DNA of 64,000 nucleotides. It comes from Gemmatimonas groenlandica. Its GTDB lineage: Bacteria; Gemmatimonadota; Gemmatimonadetes; Gemmatimonadales; Gemmatimonadaceae. The number at the start of each line of letters is the position of its first letter. Position 1 is the first letter of the stretch. Made by a program: the position numbers and the translations under genes. Where the stretch lies: the NCBI RefSeq assembly GCF_013004105.1, contig NZ_CP053085.1, positions 310,001 to 374,000 on the forward strand, written 5' to 3'. Positions 1 through 46,326 of the stretch are shown piece after piece. Below the pieces are notes generated by a model. The model worked only from the letters and a program-made list of their open reading frames with translations, was not told the DNA's origin and did not search any database.

Positions 1-1174
1 CGGTATCGAGTGCCGGCGGAATCGGCGCCGACATCGTCACGGCGGGCGGCGGCGTAGGGACGACCGCGCCGAGCGTGTCCTTCTTCAACGTGTCGCCGGG
101 CTGCGCGATCACGGGGGCGCCGGGCTGCGCAATCACCGGGGCGCCCTGCGGTGTGACCACGGGAGCCTGTGGGATGGTTGACACTACCGGTGCTTGCGCC
201 TTGGCTTTCTTGGGGAGGAAGAGCGACGGCAACGTCACACAGTAGAAGCGCGAGAGGCCTTCCTCTGGGGGCCGGTCACGCGGCGCCGTGAGCGTCTTGG
301 TGCCCGGTGCCACGAGGCGGCTGGCGTACATGATGTACTCCTGACGCACTCGCCGGAACTCCAGCGCATCGGCCGCGTACCGCCGGTGCATCTCGCACAC
401 CGTCATCTCGCGGTCGCTGCGGAAGTCGTCCTTGCTGGTGCTCTCGAAGCCACGGGTGATGCCGCGCACCTTCACCGTCTGATCTATGAAGAAGCTGCGC
501 TGCAGCCGCTTCGCATCACCACGGACAAACTCCTGCGTATATCCATCGAACAGCCGCAGCAGCAGATCCTGCCCGTTCGACGTCAGCGAGAACACGCCGC
601 TGTCGGCGTAGATCGTCTTGCGCTCCGGTCCCCTGGTGAGATCGTAGATCACGACGTCGTACATCTTGTTCGTGTTCGCATCGCTGCGGGCAATCCGCAT
701 GAAAAACTGGTCCGTGATCGCATTCATCGCCTGGTCCCTCAAGGCGAGCGTCGGCTTCGTCTTCGCGATATCGTTCTGCAGAATACGCAGTTCGTGGTTG
801 GCGCGCGGCAGCACCTGATCGTTGAACGCGACCATCGCGATCGACAACAGGAAGGCGCAGGTCAACACCGGCAGCATCAACGTGCGGACACGCACACCAC
901 TCGCCTTGAAAGCGGTGATCTCGTGTTCGGCGGCCATACGGCCGAAGGTGTACAAGGTCGCCACCAGCACGGCCATCGGCATCGTCATCGCGACGGTGAA
1001 TGGCAGCGACAGGACGAAGAATTTACCGATGGCCGACCAGGGGAGTCCCTTGCCGGCAAGGTTCGCAAGCTGGCGCGCGACGTACTGCAGCATGAGCAGC
1101 GACGTCAGCGCAGACAGCGCAAACAGGAGAGGTCCGACGTGCTCGCGCACGACATAGCGGGTAACAAGCTTCAC
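1..1174 (-). CDS. LptF/LptG (YjgP/YjgQ) family permease, 3' end outside the window
   Basis: Membrane subunit of the lipopolysaccharide exporter, which moves LPS from the inner membrane toward the outer membrane with LptB as ATPase (family knowledge). The reverse-strand reading opens with a GTG preceded by AAGGA at 9-nt spacing, starts VKLVTRYVVREHV, and runs unbroken to the window edge (about 391 residues visible). Visible marks are TM1, the IPFT-like SLPFTVAMTMPMAVLVATLY helix, the cytoplasmic coupling segment HEITAFKASGV, TM3, and the NDQVLPRANHEL motif that opens the periplasmic beta-jellyroll. After about residue 310 comes an Ala/Pro/Val-rich stretch with a tandem repeat, where an ordinary LptF/G would go straight to TM4. 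TM4-6 should lie outside the window. LptF versus LptG cannot be decided. It is divergent from sprA with a 61-bp gap. Confidence 0.9.
   Translation of the reverse strand, partial: MKLVTRYVVREHVGPLLFALSALTSLLMLQYVARQLANLAGKGLPWSAIGKFFVLSLPFTVAMTMPMAVLVATLYTFGRMAAEHEITAFKASGVRVRTLMLPVLTCAFLLSIAMVAFNDQVLPRANHELRILQNDIAKTKPTLALRDQAMNAITDQFFMRIARSDANTNKMYDVVIYDLTRGPERKTIYADSGVFSLTSNGQDLLLRLFDGYTQEFVRGDAKRLQRSFFIDQTVKVRGITRGFESTSKDDFRSDREMTVCEMHRRYAADALEFRRVRQEYIMYASRLVAPGTKTLTAPRDRPPEEGLSRFYCVTLPSLFLPKKAKAQAPVVSTIPQAPVVTPQGAPVIAQPGAPVIAQPGDTLKKDTLGAVVPTPPPAVTMSAPIPPALDT
95..142. repeat. 24-bp tandem repeat, two copies, inside the LptF/G gene
   Basis: Two adjacent 24-bp units (95-118 and 119-142) differ at two positions and encode APVIAQPG twice on the minus strand. 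They form part of a proline/alanine-rich linker in the LptF/G-like permease. Confidence 0.8.
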
Positions 1175-1235
1175 GACGTAAATTCCTTGGTGACCACCCG
1201 CATTATCAAGGGCGCGTCGGCCTAGAGTCGACAAT

Positions 1236-4200
1236 ATGCGCTCGCAGTTTTTGACCGTACCGCGGCGACATGGCTGGCCGCTGGTACCCCACGACCGGAG
1301 TTCGGTGCGCAGGCTGCTCCAAACATGGGCGCTCGCGGTAGTGCCCATGGCCTGGCCCATGGCGCTGCCGATCGCGTTGCTCCCGGCCGTTTCCCTTTTG
1401 GCGTCGCCGCTCGCGGCTCAACAGGTCGTCCCGAGGCCTGCGCCGCTGCCTCCAGGGGCGCGTCTGGCCGCGGACACGCTGCGGCTCAGGGTCCCCTCCA
1501 TACTCGGCCCTCTCGGGGTCGCTACGGCGCTGCGCCCGGATCCGGCCCGGGTCGCCGACCGTGCCGTGGCCATCGCCCGCCGGCTCCACGACGAGCGGAT
1601 TGTGGCCCGCTGGGGACAAACTGTGGTGCGCGGACTCTCCGCGCCCGGGCCGACGGTCGCGGTTGTCCGGTCGGACAGCGGTCCGACCCCGGGCGCCCTC
1701 GTCCCGCTCGTCCCGCAGCGCCGGGTGGGTGCCGACGCGGCCACCCAGCTGGCGACCGACCTGCTGGGCGACATCGGCGACCTCGGGATCGCGCTCCAGT
1801 CGCGCCTCGAGTCGAAGGTGCAGCGCAGTCGCAACGAGCGATGCACCACGGCGCAGCTGACCATCCTCGGCAACAATTGCTTCGGCATCTTCCAGCCCGC
1901 CTTCGACTTTCAGTTCAACGTGCGCACCGGCGGCGTCGTCGCCGATCGCATCTTTGTGAATGTCGACTACGACTCGCAGCGCGAGTTCGACGCGTCGAAC
2001 AACATCTCGGTGCGCTATCAGGGCAAGTCGGACGAAGCGCTGCAGACGCTGGAAGTCGGCAACGTCACCTTCCAACCGCCGGCCTCGCGCTTTCTCACCG
2101 CCGGTATTCCGTCGGGCAATTACGGCATCCAGGCCACCGGCCAGATTGGCCCCATGCGCTTCACGTCCATCGTGGCGCAGCAGAAAGGCAACGTCTCGAA
2201 GGACAACGTCTTCACCATCGGCGAACGCTCGCAACAGCAGGTCGACCGCGTCATCGAAGACATCCAGGTCGAAACGCGGCGGTTCTTCTTCACGGTCGAT
2301 CCACGTTTGCTCGGCGGATACCCGAACATCGATTTGCTGAACCGGCAGCAGATGCAGCAGCTGGCCGCATCACTGCCCGATTCGGTGCGACCGGCACGGC
2401 TGTACGTGTATCGCCAGCTCATCGGCGCCGCCAATCAGAATCCGCGCGGTCCACAGTTCTCGGTGCGCGGTGCGCGCAACCCGTCGCGCCAGATCTACGA
2501 GGTGTTGCGCGAGAACGTCGACTACTACGTCGATCCCTCGCAGCTCTGGATTGCGCTGGTCCGTCCGCTCAATCCCAACAACGAGCGCCTCGCCGTTGCG
2601 TACGAAGTGACCGTGAATGGCACGTCCGGGCGCAACGTGAACACCGGCGGTACGCCCGACATCGAGTTCACCGCCGATCCACAGTTCGCAAATCTGCTCT
2701 GGGAACCCGAGCTGCAGCCCACGAACACCGCCTACTTCCTGCGCGAACTGAAGTCGGTGTACCGCCTCGGCGGCGAAGATCTGCAGCGTCAGACGATCAA
2801 GCTCAAGCTCGTGACCGGCACGTCGGGCGATCAGGAAAAGCCGATCGATCCCTCGCGCGGCGAAACGTATCTGCAGCTGTTCGGCCTTTCGCAGGCGACC
2901 AACTCGGCGGCGTTCGACGTGGAGAATCGCGTGTGGCCGCGTCCCAATGATCCGAACACGCTGGCGTCATTCGCTGGCGGCAACGGCCAGCAGAAGCTGA
3001 TCCGCGACTACTTCGTGTTCTATCCGTCGCTGCAGCCGTTCGCGCGCGGAGGACTGGCGCAGCCTCTGGCCAATCCCGCCAACGATACGCTGTACCGCTA
3101 TCCCAACGAGTACCTGTATTCGGCGCAGCGCCCGCAGGCCATCTATCGCATGGTGGCCAGCTACCTGTCCGAGGGCGGCGGCAGCACCCAGTCGATCAAG
3201 CTGAGCACCATTCAGGTACGGCCCAACTCCGAGCGCGTGTCGCTGGACGGCCGCCTGCTGACCAAGACCACCGACTACGAGATCGACTACGACCTCGGCA
3301 TGATCACCTTCAACCGCCCTGACACGCTGTTCGCGACGCCGCGGCAGGTGTCGGTGCGCTACGAAGAGAACCCGCTGTTTGCGGCGGCGCCCACCACGAT
3401 TCTCGGCTTCGCGTCACAGTTCCCACTCGAAAACGGCCAGTTGGCGTTCACCGCCATCTCGCAGAGTCAGCGCTCGGGATACAACCGGCCGCCGCTGGGT
3501 TTCGAACCCGTGGGCTCGTTGGTGGCCGGCGTGACCGGCAACCTGGCGTGGGATGCGCCGCTCCTCACGCGAGCCCTTGGCAAGTTGCCGTTCAAGCAGA
3601 GCTCCACGCCGTCACGCGTGAGCCTGCAGGGCGAGTTCGCGATGAGCAAACCGCAGCCCAACGCGGCGGGGCAGGCGTACATCGAATCGTTCGAAGGGGA
3701 AGGCGCCATTCCCGGCATCTCGCTCTCCGAAGGATCGTGGTACTACAGCTCGCGTCCATCGCTCGGCAATACGTTGGCCGCGCGCTTCGGCAGCAGCACC
3801 TTCTCGGTGAACCGTGCCGCGACGATGGCCTTCCAGAACAACGGCGTCGATGTCGCCGGCAATTTCATTCAGTTCAACATCCAGCAGATCGATCCGTCGG
3901 TGCGCATCGTGGGTAGCGGTGTGCAGTCGCCCGAGCAGTTGTTCTGGATGACGCTGTATCCGCTCAAGACCGGCGGCATCTTCGATTTCGAACCGGGCAC
4001 GGCGAAACGCCGGTTTGCCTGGACGATCGGTGACAATACGCTGGTGGGCAATACGCCGTCCGGTCGTCGGTGGCGCTCGTTGCGCACGGTCATCAATCCC
4101 AGCGGGGCCGACCTGTCGCGCACGGAAAACATCGAGTTCTTCGCGCTCGTTCAGTCCGAACAGTTGAAGGTGAAGCGTAATCCCACGCTGGTCTTCGACT

Positions 4201-7200
4201 TCGGTGAGATCAGCGAAAACAGCGTAGCCTTCGCGCCCGAAACGCTTATCGTGAATTCGCCGGTACGTCAGGGGCTCCCGGCCGACACGACCTACAAAGG
4301 CAAGCGGCTCGTGGGCTTCGATCGTTTCGACTCCGAACGCGATCCGTTCTCGCGCGCCTTCAACGCGGCGGAGAACGACAAGGGTCTGCCGGGCGATGTA
4401 GCGGATACGATTGTCGTGGTGAACCGCACCGGCCCGACGCCGGTGACCACCACGCAGAACAAGGTGGCCATCTGCACGCAGGCCGTGCAGATCGTGCAGG
4501 TGCTCGGCGACAGCCGCGCGAATTGCGGCGCGCGTAACAACCGGCTCGATGAAGAAGACATCGATCTCGATGGCCAGTTGAACATCCCCAATGCCGCTAT
4601 CGATCAGGAGCAGTACAAGCGCTTCGTGGTCGATCTTGCCGACACGCGCAACTGGACGCGCGTGGGTAAGTGCTATCAGCAGCAGGATTCGACAGCAAAC
4701 GGCGTGGTCAGCGATTCGTTGTGCTGGGTACAGGTGCGCATCAACTGGCGCGCGCCGGCCGAAGAGCAGAACAATCCGAACGACCGGCGCATGCGCGCGC
4801 TTCGACTCACGATGGTATCGAGTGCCGAATCGGCCGATGATGCGTTCGTGCGCGTCGCGCTCACGCGCTTGAAGCTGGTCGGCGCGCCGTGGCTCAAGCG
4901 CAGCGTGGAGCCGTTGTCGGGCATGGCCGGCGACTCGGCCGGGGTGGTGGGCGGATATGTGATTGCCAGTGTGATCGGCACACTCGATTCCACCTCGTTG
5001 GTGCCGTACACACCGCCCCCTGGCGTGGTTGAAGCGCCCGAGAACAGACAGTCCGGCTACGAGAACACGCGTCTGCAGGTGAACGAGCGCGCACTGCGAC
5101 TGCAGGCAGGTATTCCTGGCCGTCAGTTCCGCGCGTTCGATCGCGCCGAGGCGTTCTTCCGGTTCCAGGAGGGTACCAAGACCTTCATGGGCTACAAGAC
5201 GCTGCGCTTGTGGATGCGCGGTCGCGGTAACGGCTGGGGGCAGAGTGGCGAGTTGAACGGCTACGTGAAGATCGGGCGTGACGAGAACAACTTCTACATG
5301 TATCGCACGCCCGTGAACGCCGGCCCGGGGCTCAGTGCCTGGGAGCCCGAAGTGCGGGTCGACCTGCAGAAGTTCCAGATCCTGCGCGCGCAGCTCGAGA
5401 ACAACTTCCTGAAGGGCTCCGCCGATTCGGTGTCCTGCTCCGGCGCGGATCTCGAGCTGATTCGTCGCTCCGGCTTGCCACGAGGTGTCGCCGTGCGTCG
5501 CTTTGCCGTCTGTCAGGATGGCTACATCGTCTACAGCGCCGATCCCACGGTCACGCCACCAAACCTCGCTGGCGTGCAGGAAATGGCGGTCGGCCTCGTG
5601 CGCGTGGATAGCGTGCCGCGCGGCGGCACCGGCATCATGAGCAACGATACGCTCGAACTGTGGATCAACGACATTCGCCTCACCGACGTGGTCGACGATA
5701 TCGGCTTCGCCGGCGAGCTTGGACTCGCCGTGAATGCCGGCGATCTGGCCGACTTCCGCATGAATGTGAGTCGTCGCGATCCGAACTTCCGTCAGCTCAA
5801 TGAAACGCCATCGTTCCTGACCACGAGCGGCGTGAGCGTGGGCACGACGCTGCACCTGGAGCGGATGCTGCCGTCGCGCCTTGGCATCGTCATGCCGTTC
5901 AGCGTCGACTACGCGGGCTCGGGGGTCAATCAGCTGTTCATCAATCGGACGGACGTGCGTGCCAGTGGCATCGAAGGATTGCGTAATCCGAGCGATCGGC
6001 GCGTGAACTACTCGTTGGCGCTGCGAAGGGCCACGCCGATGGGCGGTGGGTGGTATGCGCCCCTGTTGAACGGACTCGCACTCAACGGCACGTGGTCGAA
6101 CGCTGCGTCACAGAGCGCGTTCCAGAAGGCCACCAACAGCGCCTATGCGCTCGGCGCGTCGCTCAATCTCTCCGATGATCGTCGCGAGTCGAAGCTGCCG
6201 CGCGTGGTCGATGTGCTCTTCGGCATTCTGCCGCGTGGGCTCCGTGAAAGTGACGCGATTCGCAACTTCCGTGGACAGCGGTTCCGCTGGTCGCCGACCG
6301 CCTTGCGGCTGTCGAGCTCCATGGCGCGCCAGGCCAACTCGAGTACGTCGTTCACGAAGGCGGCCGAGTCGCCGACCGATACGGGTCAGGTCGCGAACGG
6401 ACTCACGCATTTCTGGCAGAACAGCGGTACGCTGGAGTTCCGTCCATCGGCCGGTCTCACGGCCTCCATGAACGCGCGTCAGCTGCTCGATCTGCGCGAC
6501 TACCGCACCACGTCGCTATTGCCGGACAGCACCGACCGTGGACAGGCGGCGGCCGCCGAGCGCTTGCAGGTACTGGGTACGACGCTCGGGCTCGAGCGCG
6601 AACGGTCGCTCACTTCGGCGATCCTGTTCCAGCCCACGCTGGCCGTGTGGTTGCGGCCGCGAATCGACTTCAACTCCACGTTCAACCTGAACAAGGATCC
6701 GAATGCACGCGCGCTCTTGCGTGAACAGGATTCCACGGGTGCGTATCGCTTGCCCAAGCGACTCGGTGCGGCGCAGACACTGAGCACCGGTACCACCTTC
6801 GACTTCGGTCGCTTGATTGCGACGCGCACGAAGGAGAAGACGCTGGTGAATCGACTGGGACGGATGTTCGCGCCCATCGATGTGTCGTGGCAACAGAGTC
6901 TCACGTCGAACTACGACAACACCGCCTTCATTCCCGGGTGGGGCTATCAGTTGGGGCTTGGGGGTATTCAATCGTTCCGCGGGCTCGATACCCGCCTGGC
7001 CACCACGGCCGGGCGCCTGCGGCGCGCCACCGCCACCGGCTCGCTCAATCTGCCCTTCTCGCTCACAGTGCAGTCACGCGTCGAGAACGGCACTACCGAA
7101 ACGTGGACGCGTCGCACTTTCGACGGCTTTCAGGCCGTCATCACCAGTACGCAGCTGGTAAAGCCCGACTATTCCGTGCGCTGGAGCTGGCGCCCCGTGC

Positions 7201-7796
7201 GGCTGCGGAAGGTGATCACGATGTTGAACGTGAACGGGCGCTATCTCGTGAGTGAGCAGGAAACGACCATCCCCAACGAAACCGGCGGGTTGGCCGATCG
7301 CAGCCGCACCACGGCCCGCAGTCAGCCGCTATCGGGCGCGATCACCTGGGCCTTCCTCGGTGGACTGACCACCAACGCGTCACTCGACCGCACGCACCGC
7401 GAAGACAGTCGCCCCGGTTCGCTCACCAACGGCGACACGCGGCGCGTCTCGTTCGATGTGGCCCGGCGGTTCAAAGTGCCGAAGCGATTCACCACGCGGA
7501 ACGCCACGGTGCGCACCTCGCTGTCGTACCAGAGCGAGGAGTCGCAGTCGATCGTGCAGGGATCGTCGTCCACCAACGCGGCCGGCGAGGTCATCACGAT
7601 CCCGCCGTCAGTGCTCACCGACAACGGCCGTCGGGCGTTCAACTTCAACGCGGATACCGATCTGTCGGAACTGCTCACCTTCAGTCTGACCGGGTCGCGG
7701 GTCGTGAACTTCGACCGCAATTTCAACCGGCAGACGTCGAACCTGATCTTCAGTGCGGTGCTGCAGCTCCGCTTCTTTGCGGGTGATCTGAAGTAG
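1236..7796 (+). CDS. sprA: SprA-like giant outer-membrane protein (type IX secretion translocon family)
   Basis: 2186 residues, close to the ~2400 of Bacteroidota SprA, the 36-strand outer-membrane channel of the type IX secretion system (family knowledge). A hydrophobic signal segment at about residues 31-61 ends ASPLAAQ; the long basic lead-in suggests the true start could be an internal codon, so the start is tentative. Family-like marks include ENVDYYVDPSQLWIAL, DYEIDYDLGMITF, GAIPGISLSEGSWYYSSRP, RRWRSLRTVINPSGADL and GFDRFDSERDPFSRAFN, with a long strand-rich C-terminal half. It lies alone just upstream of the comEA/pil genes. No other T9SS component (PorV, PorK-N, GldK-N) is in the window, so whether it secretes proteins or has another role is open. 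Confidence 0.85.
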   Translation: MRSQFLTVPRRHGWPLVPHDRSSVRRLLQTWALAVVPMAWPMALPIALLPAVSLLASPLAAQQVVPRPAPLPPGARLAADTLRLRVPSILGPLGVATALRPDPARVADRAVAIARRLHDERIVARWGQTVVRGLSAPGPTVAVVRSDSGPTPGALVPLVPQRRVGADAATQLATDLLGDIGDLGIALQSRLESKVQRSRNERCTTAQLTILGNNCFGIFQPAFDFQFNVRTGGVVADRIFVNVDYDSQREFDASNNISVRYQGKSDEALQTLEVGNVTFQPPASRFLTAGIPSGNYGIQATGQIGPMRFTSIVAQQKGNVSKDNVFTIGERSQQQVDRVIEDIQVETRRFFFTVDPRLLGGYPNIDLLNRQQMQQLAASLPDSVRPARLYVYRQLIGAANQNPRGPQFSVRGARNPSRQIYEVLRENVDYYVDPSQLWIALVRPLNPNNERLAVAYEVTVNGTSGRNVNTGGTPDIEFTADPQFANLLWEPELQPTNTAYFLRELKSVYRLGGEDLQRQTIKLKLVTGTSGDQEKPIDPSRGETYLQLFGLSQATNSAAFDVENRVWPRPNDPNTLASFAGGNGQQKLIRDYFVFYPSLQPFARGGLAQPLANPANDTLYRYPNEYLYSAQRPQAIYRMVASYLSEGGGSTQSIKLSTIQVRPNSERVSLDGRLLTKTTDYEIDYDLGMITFNRPDTLFATPRQVSVRYEENPLFAAAPTTILGFASQFPLENGQLAFTAISQSQRSGYNRPPLGFEPVGSLVAGVTGNLAWDAPLLTRALGKLPFKQSSTPSRVSLQGEFAMSKPQPNAAGQAYIESFEGEGAIPGISLSEGSWYYSSRPSLGNTLAARFGSSTFSVNRAATMAFQNNGVDVAGNFIQFNIQQIDPSVRIVGSGVQSPEQLFWMTLYPLKTGGIFDFEPGTAKRRFAWTIGDNTLVGNTPSGRRWRSLRTVINPSGADLSRTENIEFFALVQSEQLKVKRNPTLVFDFGEISENSVAFAPETLIVNSPVRQGLPADTTYKGKRLVGFDRFDSERDPFSRAFNAAENDKGLPGDVADTIVVVNRTGPTPVTTTQNKVAICTQAVQIVQVLGDSRANCGARNNRLDEEDIDLDGQLNIPNAAIDQEQYKRFVVDLADTRNWTRVGKCYQQQDSTANGVVSDSLCWVQVRINWRAPAEEQNNPNDRRMRALRLTMVSSAESADDAFVRVALTRLKLVGAPWLKRSVEPLSGMAGDSAGVVGGYVIASVIGTLDSTSLVPYTPPPGVVEAPENRQSGYENTRLQVNERALRLQAGIPGRQFRAFDRAEAFFRFQEGTKTFMGYKTLRLWMRGRGNGWGQSGELNGYVKIGRDENNFYMYRTPVNAGPGLSAWEPEVRVDLQKFQILRAQLENNFLKGSADSVSCSGADLELIRRSGLPRGVAVRRFAVCQDGYIVYSADPTVTPPNLAGVQEMAVGLVRVDSVPRGGTGIMSNDTLELWINDIRLTDVVDDIGFAGELGLAVNAGDLADFRMNVSRRDPNFRQLNETPSFLTTSGVSVGTTLHLERMLPSRLGIVMPFSVDYAGSGVNQLFINRTDVRASGIEGLRNPSDRRVNYSLALRRATPMGGGWYAPLLNGLALNGTWSNAASQSAFQKATNSAYALGASLNLSDDRRESKLPRVVDVLFGILPRGLRESDAIRNFRGQRFRWSPTALRLSSSMARQANSSTSFTKAAESPTDTGQVANGLTHFWQNSGTLEFRPSAGLTASMNARQLLDLRDYRTTSLLPDSTDRGQAAAAERLQVLGTTLGLERERSLTSAILFQPTLAVWLRPRIDFNSTFNLNKDPNARALLREQDSTGAYRLPKRLGAAQTLSTGTTFDFGRLIATRTKEKTLVNRLGRMFAPIDVSWQQSLTSNYDNTAFIPGWGYQLGLGGIQSFRGLDTRLATTAGRLRRATATGSLNLPFSLTVQSRVENGTTETWTRRTFDGFQAVITSTQLVKPDYSVRWSWRPVRLRKVITMLNVNGRYLVSEQETTIPNETGGLADRSRTTARSQPLSGAITWAFLGGLTTNASLDRTHREDSRPGSLTNGDTRRVSFDVARRFKVPKRFTTRNATVRTSLSYQSEESQSIVQGSSSTNAAGEVITIPPSVLTDNGRRAFNFNADTDLSELLTFSLTGSRVVNFDRNFNRQTSNLIFSAVLQLRFFAGDLK

Positions 7797-7880
7797 CTCC
7801 GGCGTTCCGGCGCGTGATAAAGATGATACTGGCGTCGTGCGGGTTACCACCGCGGCGCCGACTGTCACTACCGTGGCATC

Positions 7881-8588
7881 ATGCCCACGCCCGCGGAACG
7901 TCAGGCCCTCCTGTTTCTCGCGGCCGTCGCGGTGATCGGCGGCGGCGCACGAGTGCTGAGTACACGCCAGCTCTCCCGCGACGTCGCGGAGGCAGAGCAG
8001 GGGCCCGCTCCGAACACCGATCTCGCCACGCGCGCCCTCGACGCGCAGATCGCCGCGGTCGACTCCGCCCGTCGGAGCGGCAAGACGAAGAAATCCGCTA
8101 CGCGAGCAACATCAAGCCGCCGCGCCCGGCAGTCGACACTCGACAGCGCACGGGTGCCGGAGCCGGTCCTTTCGATCGATGTGAATGAGGCGACGGCCGC
8201 AGAGCTGGAGCGTCTGCCACGTGTCGGACCCGCGCTAGCCGCCCGCATCGTGGCGTGGCGCGTGAAGAACGGTCCGTTCGAATCTTTGGAAAGCCTCCGT
8301 CACGTGCGTGGCATCGGGCCGGCCACGGCACGGCTGCTCGCCCCTCTGGTGACGTTTTCGGGGCGGCACAGTCCATCCCAAAGTGAGGCACCTGCCTCGC
8401 CAGCCCCCGCGCCCCGTACGTGTCCTAGCCGAAATCAGTACTCATGGCTGCTACTGTTTCCCCGCTCTCTGGTCGAGCCACCGAACGGCTCGGCGATCTC
8501 CTCGTCAAAGAGGGGCTACTTACTCGCGAACAGCTGGCAAAGGCGCTGCAGGAGCAGTCCAATACGCCCGGCCAACGCATCGGGCTGA
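7881..8588 (+). CDS. comEA: ComEA-like helix-hairpin-helix DNA-binding protein
   Basis: Residues 1-30 hold an N-terminal membrane anchor (ALLFLAAVAVIGGGARVL). A low-complexity Ala/Arg/Ser linker follows. Residues about 98-158 form a tandem helix-hairpin-helix domain: IDVNEATAAELERLPRVG, then LRHVRGIGPATARLL. ComEA proteins bind incoming DNA at the membrane during transformation. The position directly ahead of type IV pilus ATPases fits that role. After the domain the frame stays open for about 75 residues; the last 145 nt overlap the 5' end of pilB in another frame, and that tail resembles no domain. Either the overlap is real or a stop was lost by an indel near 8340-8440. Confidence 0.75.
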   Translation: MPTPAERQALLFLAAVAVIGGGARVLSTRQLSRDVAEAEQGPAPNTDLATRALDAQIAAVDSARRSGKTKKSATRATSSRRARQSTLDSARVPEPVLSIDVNEATAAELERLPRVGPALAARIVAWRVKNGPFESLESLRHVRGIGPATARLLAPLVTFSGRHSPSQSEAPASPAPAPRTCPSRNQYSWLLLFPRSLVEPPNGSAISSSKRGYLLANSWQRRCRSSPIRPANASG

Positions 8589-10288
8589 CCGTCGTCAAGA
8601 TGGGCATGGTGCCGGAAACGGAAGTCGTGCGCATGCTCGCACGACAGTACCGGATGCCGGCCGTCGATCTGGCACGCTTCGAGGTCGACACGCGCCTGCT
8701 GAAGCTGATCCCGGCGGAGCTGGCGTCAAAGCACACCGTGCTGCCGCTCAAGCGCGACGGACGTCAGCTGACCGTGGCCATCGCCGATCCGACCGCCATG
8801 TCGGTGATCGACGATCTCAAGTTCATTACGCGCTACGACATCGTCCCCGTGCTGGCAGGCGAGTACTCGATGCGCGCGGCGATCGAGAAGCACTACGAAG
8901 CGAACGAAGTGCACATGCAGTCGCTGCTGCAGGACATCGCGGCGGCTGAGGAAGACGACGTCGAAGTCCTGGAGGCCCAGGAAGACGCCCAGGACGCCAG
9001 TGTGCTGGCGGCGCAGGTTGATGAAGCGCCCGTCGTCAAGCTCATCAACGCTATCCTCGTCGATGCCGTGCACAAGGGCGCGTCGGACATCCACTTCGAG
9101 TGCTTCGAACACGAACTGCGTGTGCGCTATCGCATCGACGGCGCGCTCGCCGAAGTGATGAAGCCGCCCCTGAAGATGCGTGCGGCGCTGATCTCGCGTT
9201 TCAAGATCATGGCGTCGCTGAATATCGCCGAACGCCGAGTGCCGCAGGACGGTCGCATCAAGCTGAAGGTTGGCAAGAAGGTCATCGACTTCCGCGTCAG
9301 CGTGCTGCCCACGCTGTTCGGCGAAAAGGTCGTGCTTCGAATCCTCGACAAGGGAAACCTCACCCTCGATCTCGAGAAGTTCGGTATCGAGCCGCGCGCC
9401 GAGCGCGAGCTGATGGAAGCGATCTCGAATCCGTACGGCATGGTGTTGGTTACGGGCCCGACCGGTTCGGGCAAGACCACGACACTGTACTCGGCGCTGT
9501 CGAAGATCAACAACGGCGACACGAACATCATGACCGCCGAAGATCCCGTCGAGTACAACCTCTTCGGCATCAATCAGGTACAGGTGCGCACCGAGATCGG
9601 CATGACCTTCGCGGCCGCCCTGAAGGCGTTCCTGCGTCAGGACCCGAACGTCATCATGGTCGGCGAAATCCGAGACCTGGAGACGGGCGGCATCGCCATC
9701 AAGGCCGCGCTCACCGGCCACATGGTCATGAGCACGCTGCACACGAACTCCGCGCCCGAAACGATCACACGATTGCTGGACATGGGTCTCGAGCCCTTCA
9801 ACGTGGCTTCGGCGCTCAACCTGATTCTGGCGCAGCGACTCGTGCGCCGGATCTGCAGCAAGTGCAAGGTGAAGTACGAGCCCGACGCCGCGGAATTCGC
9901 CGGCGCCAAGGTGAAGTCAACCACCACGATGCGCGAACTCAAGTTCACCGACGAAGCGCTCGACAACGCCAAGTCGCGCGCCACGCCGGAAGCCGTTCCG
10001 TTCCTGACGAACCTGTCGCTCGATACCACGATCGGCGAGCTCCCGTACTTCAAGGGACATGGCTGTGACGCGTGTGGCGGGACCGGACTGAAAGGTCGAC
10101 AGGGCTTGTACGAAGTGATGTTCCTGACGCAGACGCTCAAGAAGCTGGTGATGCAGAACGCGGACGTGCAGGTGCTGCGCAACGCCGCGATCGATGAGGG
10201 CATGCTGTCGCTCCGCATGGACGGCTGGCTCAAGGTGCTCAAAGGAGTGACCACGCTCGATCAGGTCATCCGTGAAACAGCAAGTTGA
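8444..10288 (+). CDS. pilB: Type IV pilus assembly ATPase PilB (GspE/PulE family)
   Basis: Cytoplasmic hexameric ATPase that drives pilin polymerisation. 614 residues, normal for the family. The N-terminal MshEN-like domain begins RLGDLLVKEGLLTREQL. Walker A is GPTGSGKT at 338-345 (Lys344). The Asp box is AEDPVEYNL, Walker B lies in NVIMVGEIRD, and the His box is MVMSTLHTNSAPETITRLL. The zinc-binding tetracysteine is CSKC near 470 and CDAC near 541. The family-typical N-terminus supports the ATG at 8444 although no strong ribosome site is visible. It is followed by pilT and pilC in the same direction, so it is likely one transcription unit. Confidence 0.95.
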   Translation: MAATVSPLSGRATERLGDLLVKEGLLTREQLAKALQEQSNTPGQRIGLTVVKMGMVPETEVVRMLARQYRMPAVDLARFEVDTRLLKLIPAELASKHTVLPLKRDGRQLTVAIADPTAMSVIDDLKFITRYDIVPVLAGEYSMRAAIEKHYEANEVHMQSLLQDIAAAEEDDVEVLEAQEDAQDASVLAAQVDEAPVVKLINAILVDAVHKGASDIHFECFEHELRVRYRIDGALAEVMKPPLKMRAALISRFKIMASLNIAERRVPQDGRIKLKVGKKVIDFRVSVLPTLFGEKVVLRILDKGNLTLDLEKFGIEPRAERELMEAISNPYGMVLVTGPTGSGKTTTLYSALSKINNGDTNIMTAEDPVEYNLFGINQVQVRTEIGMTFAAALKAFLRQDPNVIMVGEIRDLETGGIAIKAALTGHMVMSTLHTNSAPETITRLLDMGLEPFNVASALNLILAQRLVRRICSKCKVKYEPDAAEFAGAKVKSTTTMRELKFTDEALDNAKSRATPEAVPFLTNLSLDTTIGELPYFKGHGCDACGGTGLKGRQGLYEVMFLTQTLKKLVMQNADVQVLRNAAIDEGMLSLRMDGWLKVLKGVTTLDQVIRETAS

Positions 10289-10376
10289 GTTTGTGTGACG
10301 GTGGGGTTTCCTCCCGCCGAAACGCTCGTCCACATCCGGGACGCCGATTGACGCCCCGTTCACGACTGCCCGCGCG

Positions 10377-11543
10377 ATGACAGCTCCCGCCCAGACACCC
10401 GTATCACTGCGCACCCTGCTCGATGAAATGATCGAGCGGGATGCCTCCGACTTGCACGTTTCCGCCGGTGACCGGCCGAAGCTGCGGGTCGATGGTGATA
10501 TCGTGAACTCCAGCATCGAACATGTGCTCACGCCCCGGGACACGCTGCAGCTGGCGTATTCGGTGCTTACCGAGAATCAGAAGAAGCGATTCGAAATGGA
10601 GGACGAGCTCGACTTCTCGTTCGGCATCGCGAATCTCTCCCGGTTCCGCGGCAACGTGTTCAAGCAGCGCGGCTGCGTGAGCATGGTGATTCGTTGCATT
10701 CCGTTCCACATCAAGACGTTCAACGATCTCAATCTCCCGCCGGTGATTGCCGGCTTCGCCGACCGTCCGCGCGGCCTCGTGCTCGTGACCGGCCCGACCG
10801 GCTCTGGCAAGAGCACCACGCTCGCGGCGATGATCGACAAGATCAACACCGAGCGTCGCGGGCACATCATCACGGTCGAAGATCCGATCGAATTCATTCA
10901 TCGGCATCGCAACTGCATCATCAATCAGCGCGAGGTCGGCGCCGACACCAAGAGCTTTGCGTCGGCCCTCAAGTACGCGCTCCGTGAAGATCCCGACGTC
11001 ATCCTGATCGGCGAAATGCGCGACCTTGAAACGATCCAGGCCGCGCTCACCATCGCCGAAACGGGTCACCTCGTGTTCGCCACGCTGCACACCAACAGTG
11101 CGGCCGAAGCGATCAACCGCATCATCGACGTGTTTCCGGCGCACCAGCAGAGTCAGGTCCGCGCGCAGTTGGCGTTCACCCTCGAGGGCATCATCACGCA
11201 AGTCCTGATGCCCAAGATCAGTGGTCGTGGCCGGGCGATGGCCGCGGAAATTCTGGTGATGACGCCAGCCATGCGCGCGCTGATTCGTGACGACAAGGTG
11301 CACCAGATCTACTCGCTCATGCAGGCCGGTAAGAAGTTCGGCATGCAGACGATGAACGATGCGCTGTACCAGCTGTACGTGTCGCGCCAGGTGAGCGCCG
11401 ACGAGTGCATTCGCGCGTCGGGCGATCCGAACGAGTTCCTGCGCATGATCGGCAAGGGGCCGACCGACGACAATCTCTCGGCCCCGCCGCAGGCCAACCG
11501 TAACGGCGATCGCGCCGTGGTCGGCGGCCTCGGGAAACGGTAG
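10377..11543 (+). CDS. pilT: Type IV pilus retraction ATPase PilT
   Basis: 388 residues. Opens with LLDEMIERDASDLHVSAGD, the PilT N-terminal signature. Walker A is GPTGSGKS at 139-146, the Asp box VEDPIEFIH, Walker B VILIGEMRD, the His box HLVFATLHTNSAAEAINR, followed by DVFPAHQQ. PilT depolymerises pili and powers twitching motility and DNA uptake. It sits 88 bp after pilB and 62 bp before pilC. The C-terminal ~25 residues are a polar tail. Confidence 0.95.
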   Translation: MTAPAQTPVSLRTLLDEMIERDASDLHVSAGDRPKLRVDGDIVNSSIEHVLTPRDTLQLAYSVLTENQKKRFEMEDELDFSFGIANLSRFRGNVFKQRGCVSMVIRCIPFHIKTFNDLNLPPVIAGFADRPRGLVLVTGPTGSGKSTTLAAMIDKINTERRGHIITVEDPIEFIHRHRNCIINQREVGADTKSFASALKYALREDPDVILIGEMRDLETIQAALTIAETGHLVFATLHTNSAAEAINRIIDVFPAHQQSQVRAQLAFTLEGIITQVLMPKISGRGRAMAAEILVMTPAMRALIRDDKVHQIYSLMQAGKKFGMQTMNDALYQLYVSRQVSADECIRASGDPNEFLRMIGKGPTDDNLSAPPQANRNGDRAVVGGLGKR

Positions 11544-11605
11544 CTCCGCACCCGCTGTCTCTGAAGCTGTTGTAGTGGTTCTCCGCACTTTGACTATCTG
11601 ATACC

Positions 11606-12802
11606 ATGCCTACGTTCACCTATACCGCGCGCGGCACCAACGGCGAGCTCAAATCGGCCACGATCGACGCGCCCAGTCGCGACGACGCGGTCGCCCAGCT
11701 CCGCCGCCAGCGTCTCACGATCATCAAGGTCGACGAGTCGCGATCGACGCCGAAGAAGACCGGTGGGTCGATCGGCATGCGCGACATCGTGATCTTCACG
11801 CGTCAGTTCTCCACCATGATCAACGCCGGCCTGCCGCTCGTGCAGGCACTCGACATTCTGGCGCGCCAGAGCGAGAACAAGGCGCTGGCGGCGGTGGTGC
11901 GCGAAGTGGTGTTCGACGTGGAGTCGGGTAACACGGTCGCCGATGCCATGCGCAAGCATCCGAAGGCGTTCAGCGACCTGTACACCAACATGGTCGCGGC
12001 TGGCGAAGCGGGCGGTATCCTCGATACCATCCTGAACCGCCTCGCGATCTTCATGGAAAAGAACGACGCCCTCGTCCGCAAGGTGAAGGGCGCCATGATC
12101 TATCCCACGGTCATTCTCTGCGTGGCCGGCTTGTGCGTCGTCATTCTGCTCTGGAAGGTCATTCCGGTATTCAGCAGCATGTTCGACAGCGTGGGCATGG
12201 AACTGCCGCTCCCCACGAAGGTCGTGATCGGGTTGTCGCACTTCCTGACGACATACTGGTGGGGCATCCTGATCTCCGGCGCCGGCGCGGCGTTCTTCAC
12301 GAAGCGCTTCTACGCCACGCCCGGTGGTCAGCTGGTCATCGACAAGGCGCTCCTCAAGGTGCCCGTGCTCGGCGACGTGCTCCGCAAGTCGGCCGTGTCA
12401 CGCTTCACCCGTACGCTCGGTACGCTGATCTCGTCCGGCGTCAGCATTCTCGACGGCCTGGAAATCACTGCGCGCACGTCGGGCAACCGCGTGGTGCAGG
12501 ACGCCATCATGGGCAGCCGCGCCAGCATCGCCGGTGGTGACACGATCGCGGGCCCGCTGCAGAAGTCCGAAGTGTTTCCGCCCATGGTGATCAGCATGAT
12601 CGCCGTCGGCGAACAGACCGGCGGCCTGGACGAAATGCTCAGCAAGATCGCCGACTTCTACGATGACGAAGTCGACGCCGCGGTGAGTGCCCTGCTGTCG
12701 CTGCTAGAGCCGGTCATGATCGTGTTCCTCGGCGTCGTGGTGGGCGGTATGATCGTCGCGATGTACCTGCCGATCTTCGACATGGTGAATGCGGTGAAGT
12801 AA
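11606..12802 (+). CDS. pilC: Type IV pilus inner-membrane platform protein PilC (GspF family)
   Basis: 398 residues, standard length. Starts MPTFTYTARGTNGELKSATI, the usual GspF/PilC opening. Two GspF domains are visible: FTRQFSTMINAGLPLVQALDIL near 68-90 and FTRTLGTLISSGVSILDGLEI near 265-290, each followed by helices and a membrane span; the last span is EPVMIVFLGVVVGGMIVAMYLPIF. It forms the inner-membrane platform on which PilB and PilT act. It closes the pil cluster. The left end of the 12812-14009 element begins 10 bp after the stop. Confidence 0.95.
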   Translation: MPTFTYTARGTNGELKSATIDAPSRDDAVAQLRRQRLTIIKVDESRSTPKKTGGSIGMRDIVIFTRQFSTMINAGLPLVQALDILARQSENKALAAVVREVVFDVESGNTVADAMRKHPKAFSDLYTNMVAAGEAGGILDTILNRLAIFMEKNDALVRKVKGAMIYPTVILCVAGLCVVILLWKVIPVFSSMFDSVGMELPLPTKVVIGLSHFLTTYWWGILISGAGAAFFTKRFYATPGGQLVIDKALLKVPVLGDVLRKSAVSRFTRTLGTLISSGVSILDGLEITARTSGNRVVQDAIMGSRASIAGGDTIAGPLQKSEVFPPMVISMIAVGEQTGGLDEMLSKIADFYDDEVDAAVSALLSLLEPVMIVFLGVVVGGMIVAMYLPIFDMVNAVK

Positions 12803-44506: not shown

Positions 44507-44539
44507 ATAGTATTGACGCATAGTATAAAATAATAGTAT
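44507..44539 (+). promoter_or_regulatory. Three ATAGTAT direct repeats phased at 13 bp ahead of the PadR gene
   Basis: ATAGTAT occurs at 44507-44513, 44520-44526 and 44533-44539, exactly 13 bp apart, in a markedly AT-rich stretch of an otherwise GC-rich window. A TTGACG (44513-44518) between the first two copies could be a -35, with the third copy (TAGTAT) as -10 at 15-bp spacing. The site ends 35 bp before the padR-like start, so it is probably its promoter and operator. Confidence 0.6.
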
Positions 44540-44574
44540 TCATGTGTAGTGCAATTTCCTCACCGCGAGGCTCG

Positions 44575-44901
44575 ATGAAGACCCATCTGTTTTTTATCCT
44601 GATTTCCCTGGCCGCCGAGCCACGATACGGCACGGCCATCCAGGATGACGTGCGCAGTCTCAGCGACGGCAGCGTGCGTCTGTGGCCGGCCACGCTGTAC
44701 GGATCCCTCGAAGAGCTGGTGCGCGTGGGTTGGATCGAGGAGGTGGCCGACGACGATCGTCCGGACGGCGGGTCGGGACGCGAGCGCTTCTATCGTCTCA
44801 CCGGTGGCGGGCGCACCGCCCTAGAGGCAGAGAGCGCTCGACTCGACTCGATGGTGCGGCTGGCGCGTGCGCGTCTCACACCGCAGGGGCTCAGCGTATG
44901 A
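44575..44901 (+). CDS. PadR-like transcriptional regulator
   Basis: 108 residues from the ATG at 44575 with GAGG six bases upstream. Winged-helix PadR pattern: THLFFILISLAAEPRYGTAI, then LWPATLYGSLEELVRVGWIE, then RFYRLTGGGRTAL (wing and recognition). Usual small-PadR length. PadR repressors commonly precede the membrane proteins they control. Here the stop overlaps the next start (ATGA) and a repeat array lies upstream, supporting an autoregulated two-gene unit. Confidence 0.9.
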   Translation: MKTHLFFILISLAAEPRYGTAIQDDVRSLSDGSVRLWPATLYGSLEELVRVGWIEEVADDDRPDGGSGRERFYRLTGGGRTALEAESARLDSMVRLARARLTPQGLSV

Positions 44902-45959
44902 GCGGTCACCACACGTCCGACTCGACGCATCGCGGCTGGCGTCGTGTGTACGGCGCCCTCTCGGTGTTGATGCCAAGCGCGATGCGCGACAAGCATGGCG
45001 CGGCCATGAGCGAGCTGTTCGTGCGTGAGCTCGAGCGCAGCGCAGGCTCCGGCCGTGCGGCCGTAATCTGGACCGCGGCCGTTGGCCTCGGCGACTTGGT
45101 ACAACGCGGACTCTACGAGCGCGTCGTCGAAGAACGCACGGCGATGACGGCACCGAACCGGCAACTGCTCCGACAGTTGAGCAAGGGGTACGTCGTGGCC
45201 TTCGTCGCATTAACGAGTGTGTTGCTCGCGACGTACGCGTGGCGGCAGGTCGAACGGTGGAGCGCGCACGCGATTTCGCCGACCACGTTGATCGAGCTCC
45301 TTGTATTTGCGATACCATTCACCGCCGCGCTCACGCTGCCCATGGCGATGTTCATCGCCGTACTCTCGACAGCGAGTCGTTCCGCGGCCACGAGTGACGG
45401 CGCCGCCGCACGGCTTCGACGAGCACCGTTGATTGGACTTGCCTCCGCCCTTGCGCTGTTCGCCTTTGCGTGGAATGCCGAGGTCGTCCCGCGCGCGAAC
45501 GCACGGCTCGCGGCGCTGCAGTCGAATCAACCGGTGGCGGCACCCAGCGATCGCACCATGACGTTGGGCGAGCTGCGCACCGCCGCACGACGCGCGGCGC
45601 AACGACCGGTGACCGCGGCGGGCACCACGAGGCTGGCGGAAGTGGCGAGCTACGGCATCGAGATTCACAAGAAACCCGCGATTGCGGCGGCGTGCGTGGT
45701 GCTCGCATTGTTGGCGCTCGCGATCTCGCAGCGCGCACCACGCGCCGGTGTGATCGTGCAGCTGCTCGCCAGCGGGGTGGTGTTCACGGTCTACTACGCG
45801 ATCATCATGGCCGGAGAAGCGCTTGCCGAGCGGCTCGTGCTGTCACCGATGCTGGCCATGTGGTCCGCGAACGGGGTGTTGCTGGGCATCGCGCTGCTCG
45901 CGATGCGACGACGACGGGACTCGACAGACTGGCGAGGCGTTGTATCCGAGCGTATATAA
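44898..45959 (+). CDS. Permease-prefix region fused to a jellyroll-less LptF/LptG-like permease
   Basis: 353 residues. Residues about 12-80 resemble the soluble prefix that precedes MacB-type permeases in PadR-linked systems (GWRRVYGALSVLMP, MSELFVRELE). Residues 95-208 follow the LptF/G plan also seen in the window's first gene: VFAIPFTAALTLPMAMFIAV against the LptF/G VLSLPFTVAMTMPMAVLVAT, and VVPRANARL against VLPRANHEL. Residues 252-335 match the LptF/G end (EIHKKPAI; VYYAIIMAGEALAER; LSPMLAMWSANGVLLG). The ~150-residue periplasmic jellyroll is reduced to about 45 residues, and the LptB-coupling segment is altered. It is coupled to the PadR gene. A transport role is inference. Confidence 0.7.
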   Translation: MSGHHTSDSTHRGWRRVYGALSVLMPSAMRDKHGAAMSELFVRELERSAGSGRAAVIWTAAVGLGDLVQRGLYERVVEERTAMTAPNRQLLRQLSKGYVVAFVALTSVLLATYAWRQVERWSAHAISPTTLIELLVFAIPFTAALTLPMAMFIAVLSTASRSAATSDGAAARLRRAPLIGLASALALFAFAWNAEVVPRANARLAALQSNQPVAAPSDRTMTLGELRTAARRAAQRPVTAAGTTRLAEVASYGIEIHKKPAIAAACVVLALLALAISQRAPRAGVIVQLLASGVVFTVYYAIIMAGEALAERLVLSPMLAMWSANGVLLGIALLAMRRRRDSTDWRGVVSERI

Positions 45960-45978: not shown

Positions 45979-46326
45979 CTATCCCGTCCGCTTCCGAAGA
46001 TGCCGTTCCAGAAACGCTACGTCCTGCACGGCCGCGCGTCGCAACGTCTCCTCGATCGAGCGGTAGCGTTCGACGATCTGATGGCCAAACGGCGTCAAGG
46101 AAGCGCCGCCGCCGTGCACGCCGCCGTGCGCTGCCTCGGTCACGGGCTCTGTGAACATGTCGTTCATCGTCTCGACCAGCAGCCAGGCCCGTCGATACGA
46201 CATCCCCATCATGCGCGCCGCGCCGCTGATGGAGCCCTCGGCTGCGATGGCCTCGAGGAGCGCGACTTTGCCAGGGCCGAGCCGTTCCGCGTCGTCGAAC
46301 AAGATGCGTAGGAAGAACGTGGTCAT
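45979..46326 (-). CDS. ModE-type N-terminal winged-helix regulator
   Basis: 115 residues, the DNA-binding half of ModE only. LGPGKVALLEAIAAEGSISG then AARMMGMSYRRAWLLVETMN and LTPFGHQIVERYR are close to the ModE/LysR-like family pattern. The molybdate-binding TOBE domains are absent, as in many stand-alone ModE-like proteins. The ATG (46324-46326) overlaps by two bases the ATG of the TonB receptor on the other strand, so the promoters must lie inside each other's coding DNA. It probably regulates that receptor. Confidence 0.88.
   Translation of the reverse strand: MTTFFLRILFDDAERLGPGKVALLEAIAAEGSISGAARMMGMSYRRAWLLVETMNDMFTEPVTEAAHGGVHGGGASLTPFGHQIVERYRSIEETLRRAAVQDVAFLERHLRKRTG

Follow-up and report, generated by a model that had tools for sequence, protein, structure and literature searches.

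A PadR-linked, LptF-derived membrane protein with an ADOP-type prefix and without the jellyroll and coupling helix of the LPS exporter

Introduction

Permeases of the ADOP type are known as orphan permeases. In HAAS-PadR pairs, a PadR gene is coupled to an N-terminal domain that is fused to varied membrane cores, including FtsX/MacB (PMC11237479). The HAAS domain (PF22564) consists of three helices with a GxP motif. In the LPS exporter of Klebsiella and E. coli, a coupling helix (E84, V87, M88 and other residues) docks into LptB, and the start of TM1 lies within the LptB-contacting region (PMC5548808). Among open-access papers we found no relevant one that joins PadR with LptF.

Here we describe a locus that combines elements of these systems, located in a stretch of 64,000 nucleotides (the window). 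As established by sequence comparison, it is a two-gene cassette made up of a PadR gene and a gene in which an ADOP-type prefix is joined to an LptF-derived, predicted six-TM core lacking both the jellyroll and the coupling helix.

Results

The second gene of the cassette (44898-45959, +) encodes 353 amino acids, and its ATG overlaps the stop of the upstream PadR open reading frame (ATGA). The LptF/G plan that an earlier note on this DNA had recognised in the protein, together with its proposal of an LptF_LptG HMM search, was borne out: the Pfam model (PF03739) matches with E = 7.9e-28 and 97.9 bits, well over the gathering cut-off of 27.9. Based on the whole-genome profile search, the match comprises two stretches, profile positions 1-132 and 233-353, so that the jellyroll part is skipped. 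The protein also matches TIGR04407 (LptF; 6.8e-22, 77.7 bits) and TIGR04408 (LptG; 8.6e-9, 34.5 bits), in both cases far below the equivalog cut-offs of 230 and 240. LptF chains were the sole matches in sequence searches of the PDB. Six hydrophobic segments follow one another in the order of LptF, the topology and fold resting on this hydropathy and on profile homology. An E1-E2_ATPase identity was rejected, since the Pfam match (7.5e-4) lies under its cut-off and occurs in one member only; defence-system models gave zero matches.

All parts of the protein lie on the + strand. An N-terminal prefix of about 75 amino acids (44925..45146), probably cytosolic, precedes the first LptF-like half (45159..45533), which contains TM1-TM3, corresponds to the first profile stretch and has lost the coupling helix and its motif between TM2 and TM3. 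A short periplasmic stretch (45534..45656) replaces the jellyroll and retains a DRxMTxxEL segment. The second half (45657..45911), with TM4-TM6, corresponds to the second profile stretch, matches the LptF chains of the PDB and carries the conserved IEIHKK, GEALAE and PMLAMWSAN.

The stretch between TM3 and TM4 measures 49 amino acids in the window protein and 42-75 in ten LptF-like proteins, as against 140-152 in LptG and 208-324 in LptF of related genomes, based on the alignment. The beta-jellyroll is absent from the LptF-like proteins wherever the sequence is readable. The coupling segment, which carries an E-x-T-A motif in canonical rows, occurs in all canonical LptF/LptG rows that extend over it and is lost in 10 out of 10 LptF-like proteins; none of the ten has the conserved coupling Glu or the conserved Tyr at the start of TM1. 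Thus, two further statements of the earlier note, a missing jellyroll replaced by about 45 residues and an unconserved LptB-coupling segment, agree with the measurements. Matches to LptF-conserved columns are few in the coupling helix (13%), at the TM1 start (17%), and at the TM4 end and TM4-5 loop (33-36%), and frequent in TM2 (72%), at the TM4 start (80%), in TM5 (79%) and in the TM5-6 loop (97%). This pattern indicates that decay has affected the side turned towards the ATPase and has spared the side turned towards the membrane and periplasm.

That LptF-specific residues are retained at the TM4 start, in TM5 and in the TM5-6 loop could also mean that the protein acts as a decoy, pairing with LptG (or LptF) and lowering or tuning LPS export under PadR control. 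Canonical LptF/LptG-type matches are present in the same genomes, and a complex that takes up an LptF lacking contact with LptB could be poisoned. However, conservation is low (30%) in TM1, which forms the other half of the lateral gate, and we regard such a role as unlikely.

The canonical lptF of the window itself (2-1168, -; L110 3020-4918, -) is unusually long, with an open frame of 632 amino acids. It has more than 100 amino acids, partly Pro-rich, between the DREMT segment and TM4. The periplasmic stretch of LptFs in the phylum generally measures 208-324 amino acids.

Within the reach of the survey, which relied on draft assemblies with many incomplete genomes and barely sampled phyla beyond the window's own, the LptF-like gene occurs in 12 species, all of one bacterial family, which by gene content probably belongs to the Gemmatimonadota. 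The relatives of the window copy (G001, G004, G006, G012, G013, G023, G244, G269, G302, G342 and G319, the last cut by a contig end) were found by searching 61 genomes at the protein level, 30 genomes of the genus and, with the prefix profile, 298 genomes of the phylum and 179 of the family. A 100/99 split separates LptF from LptG in a tree of the membrane parts, and the LptF-like proteins group on its LptF side as a single clade (100/99). Placement of this long-branched clade among the LptFs is less sure (82/99). By its phylogeny, the protein is a descendant of LptF and not of LptG. A repurposed LPS-exporter fold, as had been suggested earlier, is well supported by sequence; the accompanying idea of a regulator or a new transporter is conjecture.

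The distribution within the genus is patchy (7 of 30 genomes). The copy in G013 is frame-broken at a contig end and that in G006 internally deleted, which indicates that the module is dispensable. These two disruptions, the patchy distribution and the long branch would fit a decaying, functionless lptF duplicate kept by chance beside PadR. Against this, the same architecture recurs in 12 species, invariant residues are present across the orthologues and the predicted operator described below is conserved. dN/dS is well below 1, as expected under purifying selection: two close pairs give 0.27-0.36 for the LptF-like gene and 0.09-0.11 for PadR. Conservation of the gene, prefix and PadR in orthologues, together with these ratios, confirms that the gene is not a chance product, and we consider mere decay very improbable.

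Gene surroundings vary among the relatives except in close pairs, and no third neighbour gene beside the PadR/LptF-like pairs is common to the set. In the window, G012 and G004, one and the same conserved gene block linked to lptFG (window 1-12802; L040; L132/L045) is found upstream of the pair. The distance from lptF to the pair is about 43 kb in the window and about 22 kb in G004, and in G012 the pair follows the block directly. The sampled surroundings in G001 are unlike this block. Immediately beyond the cassette, the window encodes a free-standing ModE-type DNA-binding domain (45979-46326, -; TIGR00637, 1e-26, just under its cut-off) that has no molybdate-binding part and is divergent from a TonB-dependent-receptor-like gene.

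The first gene of the cassette (44575..44901, +) encodes a PadR-family regulator of 108 amino acids; its frame opens at 44542 and the start at 44575 was set from orthologous starts. It matches Pfam PadR (PF03551) with 5.3e-11 and 42.8 bits (cut-off 27), TIGR03433 padR_acidobact with a sub-cutoff 1.3e-11, and LmrR-like PadR structures (3f8b and others) with E of about 1e-3. The coupling to PadR that had been proposed for the window holds throughout, as a PadR gene is directly upstream of the LptF-like gene in the window and in every genuine relative.

Profile searches with the prefix (A2) gave about 90 locations, which are spread over 46 of 298 phylum genomes and fall mostly in open reading frames of 880-1100 amino acids. 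Five sampled long frames are ADOP permeases (TIGR03434, E down to 7.5e-244), and in all five the TIGR03434 model starts right after the prefix. This model does not match the window protein, which has the LptF core in place of the MacB-type duplicated core. The likeness of the first 80 or so residues to the prefix of PadR-linked MacB-type permeases, noted earlier, therefore stands as regards an ADOP-type prefix of about 75 amino acids. It does not extend to NCBI perm_prefix_1 (NF038403), which had zero matches in the own genome and a profile-comparison probability below 1%. Pfam HAAS (PF22564) was likewise rejected, with no match in the own genome and no GxP in A2. Neither Pfam, up to E 10, nor NCBIfam gave a match to the prefixes; the prefix is thus of a type without a model in these two libraries.

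PadR lies 0-73 bp upstream on the same strand in 32 of 33 prefix matches that were read. The exception, L088, is not a genuine gene. One-TM prefix proteins (L085-L097), considered as candidates for new cores, proved on reading to be mostly contig-cut, N-masked or frameshifted ADOPs. At L093 (3584-4531, -), PadR precedes a small protein that has a prefix-like N-terminus and six hydrophobic segments. Neither Pfam nor NCBIfam matches this protein, which may represent a third type of core behind the prefix. The only full-score ADOP of the own genome (L126; G000:C1:4769118-4771601) has no such prefix, and its fetched flank shows no recognisable PadR.

The PadR tree unites the LptF-type PadRs with those of L084 (ADOP-type) and L108 (core unread) in a clade (100/98) that is itself nested among the PadRs of ADOP loci. 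The prefix of L084 is 58% identical to that of L083. Judged by sequence, PadR goes with the prefix and not with the core. The nesting suggests that one PadR-prefix unit exchanged the core behind it, and a change from a MacB-type to an LptF-type core is apparently the simplest reading. As some PadR branches are weak, the direction of the swap is likely, not proven.

Upstream of PadR we predict an operator of three ATASTAT half-sites (44507-44513, 44520-44526 and 44533-44539), whose array overlaps a -35-like TTGACG (44513-44518). The half-sites are tandem and self-complementary (ATA-C/G-TAT), lie 13 bp apart (ATASTAT-N6-ATASTAT) next to or over a TTGAC box, and are conserved upstream of PadR. 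With at most one mismatch, the two-site pattern occurs in the 5.18-Mb genome upstream of the own PadR only, in a scan where the motif is AT-rich against a GC-rich genome and weaker sites fall below threshold; 0.01 occurrences are expected in the window by shuffling. Thirteen other genomes carry the LptF-type cassette or, in G147 and G199, a sister PadR. Matches are present in 11 of them, always upstream of the PadR that belongs to the cassette or, for G147, ahead of its two PadR-ADOP pairs. In G004 and G319, which have no match at this threshold, the best site has 2 mismatches. The pattern is absent from 5 out of 5 non-carrier genomes, and read backwards, as a chance control, it gives 0-3 matches per genome. 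In G012, G302 and G342 the sites fall between TTGAC and TATAAT-like boxes, which suits autorepression; an automatic promoter scan of the window found nothing. As the operator is found only upstream of the own PadR in the genome, the module appears to regulate only itself, that is, the predicted operator appears to confine PadR control to its own operon.

The second PadR-prefix pair of G147 (L130 3801-4142), with an ADOP-sized long frame, has the same ATASTAT-N6-ATASTAT operator. This implies that the operator predates the LptF core or is common to several PadRs.

A local switch of this kind also fits induction by a ligand. In such a system, PadR would bind a toxic compound, as in LmrR, and derepress an orphan, efflux-type permease for drugs or amphiphiles that uses an ATPase encoded elsewhere. 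The matches to LmrR-like structures point in this direction, as does the fact that the same PadR-prefix unit heads ADOP permeases. However, every member has lost the coupling helix and the LptB-contact positions, and with them the usual link to an ATPase, and with no third conserved gene nearby there is no conserved ATPase gene either. We therefore find this explanation rather doubtful.

Discussion

The reading that we tentatively favour, while allowing that it may well be wrong, is that of a PadR-prefix feedback switch over an ATPase-uncoupled LptF-type protein that senses or modulates the traffic of LPS or amphiphiles. PadR would repress the operon by binding the tandem ATASTAT half-sites over the promoter. 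The prefix would be the membrane partner of PadR, reporting to it the state or amount of the core, as proposed for HAAS-PadR pairs; we infer this contact from co-occurrence and co-inheritance. The LptF-derived core, without ATPase or bridge contact, would no longer export LPS. It might sense or hold a lipid of the inner membrane, LPS-like or otherwise amphiphilic, or, alternatively, pair with itself or with an Lpt subunit and so modulate export, its level being set by the PadR feedback loop. In support of this, the losses hit exactly the two partner-contact parts, LptB coupling and jellyroll, in all members. Against it, PadR could bind a small molecule directly, as LmrR does. The apparent confinement of the operator to its own promoter also speaks against signalling to a wider set of genes, as any sensor would then feed back on itself alone; it is probably the membrane protein that carries the outcome within the feedback loop.

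A broader version of this feedback switch, which we put forward as speculation that is unlikely to hold in full, would make PadR-prefix a general membrane-to-promoter relay with exchangeable cores. The LptF core, stripped of its contacts to ATPase and bridge, would then be a dedicated sensor or governor of the LPS or LPS-precursor load in the inner membrane, tied directly to an autoregulated repressor. If the prefix does signal to PadR, the relay would be a modular membrane-sensing system that is nameless in the profile libraries used, and its LptF version would offer a handle on how bacteria sense LPS traffic. An LPS-exporter subunit appears here cut down to its membrane core and placed under a PadR switch, which suggests that part of an essential transporter was rebuilt into a self-regulated membrane device. 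An LptF homologue that fails the defining features of a working exporter subunit should not carry that annotation, and an LptF_LptG label by itself does not imply LPS transport.

Compared with LmrR and other small PadR repressors, the window PadR is alike in size, in its PadR family membership by sequence and in an apparently autoregulated local operon, but its partner is an LptF-type protein and its operator sequence is its own. With LptF of the LptB2FG exporter, the membrane protein shares the P-A-T-P in TM2, VEIHKK, GExLAD, PxxAMWxAN and the DRxMT segment. It differs in having no jellyroll and no coupling helix, in its extra N-terminal prefix and PadR operon, and in not lying beside lptG. 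With PadR-linked ADOPs (acidobacterial duplicated orphan permease, TIGR03434), a subset of ADOPs distinguished by an upstream PadR and such a prefix, it has in common the prefix, the subgroup of the directly upstream PadR and, at the G147 ADOP loci, the operator, whereas its core is LptF-derived, not MacB/FtsX, in about 350 instead of about 890 amino acids. As in HAAS-PadR pairs, a PadR gene accompanies an N-terminal domain on a membrane core, but the window prefix has no Pfam HAAS match and no GxP motif, and LptF cores are absent from the cores described in the parts of that source used here (PMC11237479). The cassette may function as a HAAS-PadR pair does, although it is not detectably a member of that group.
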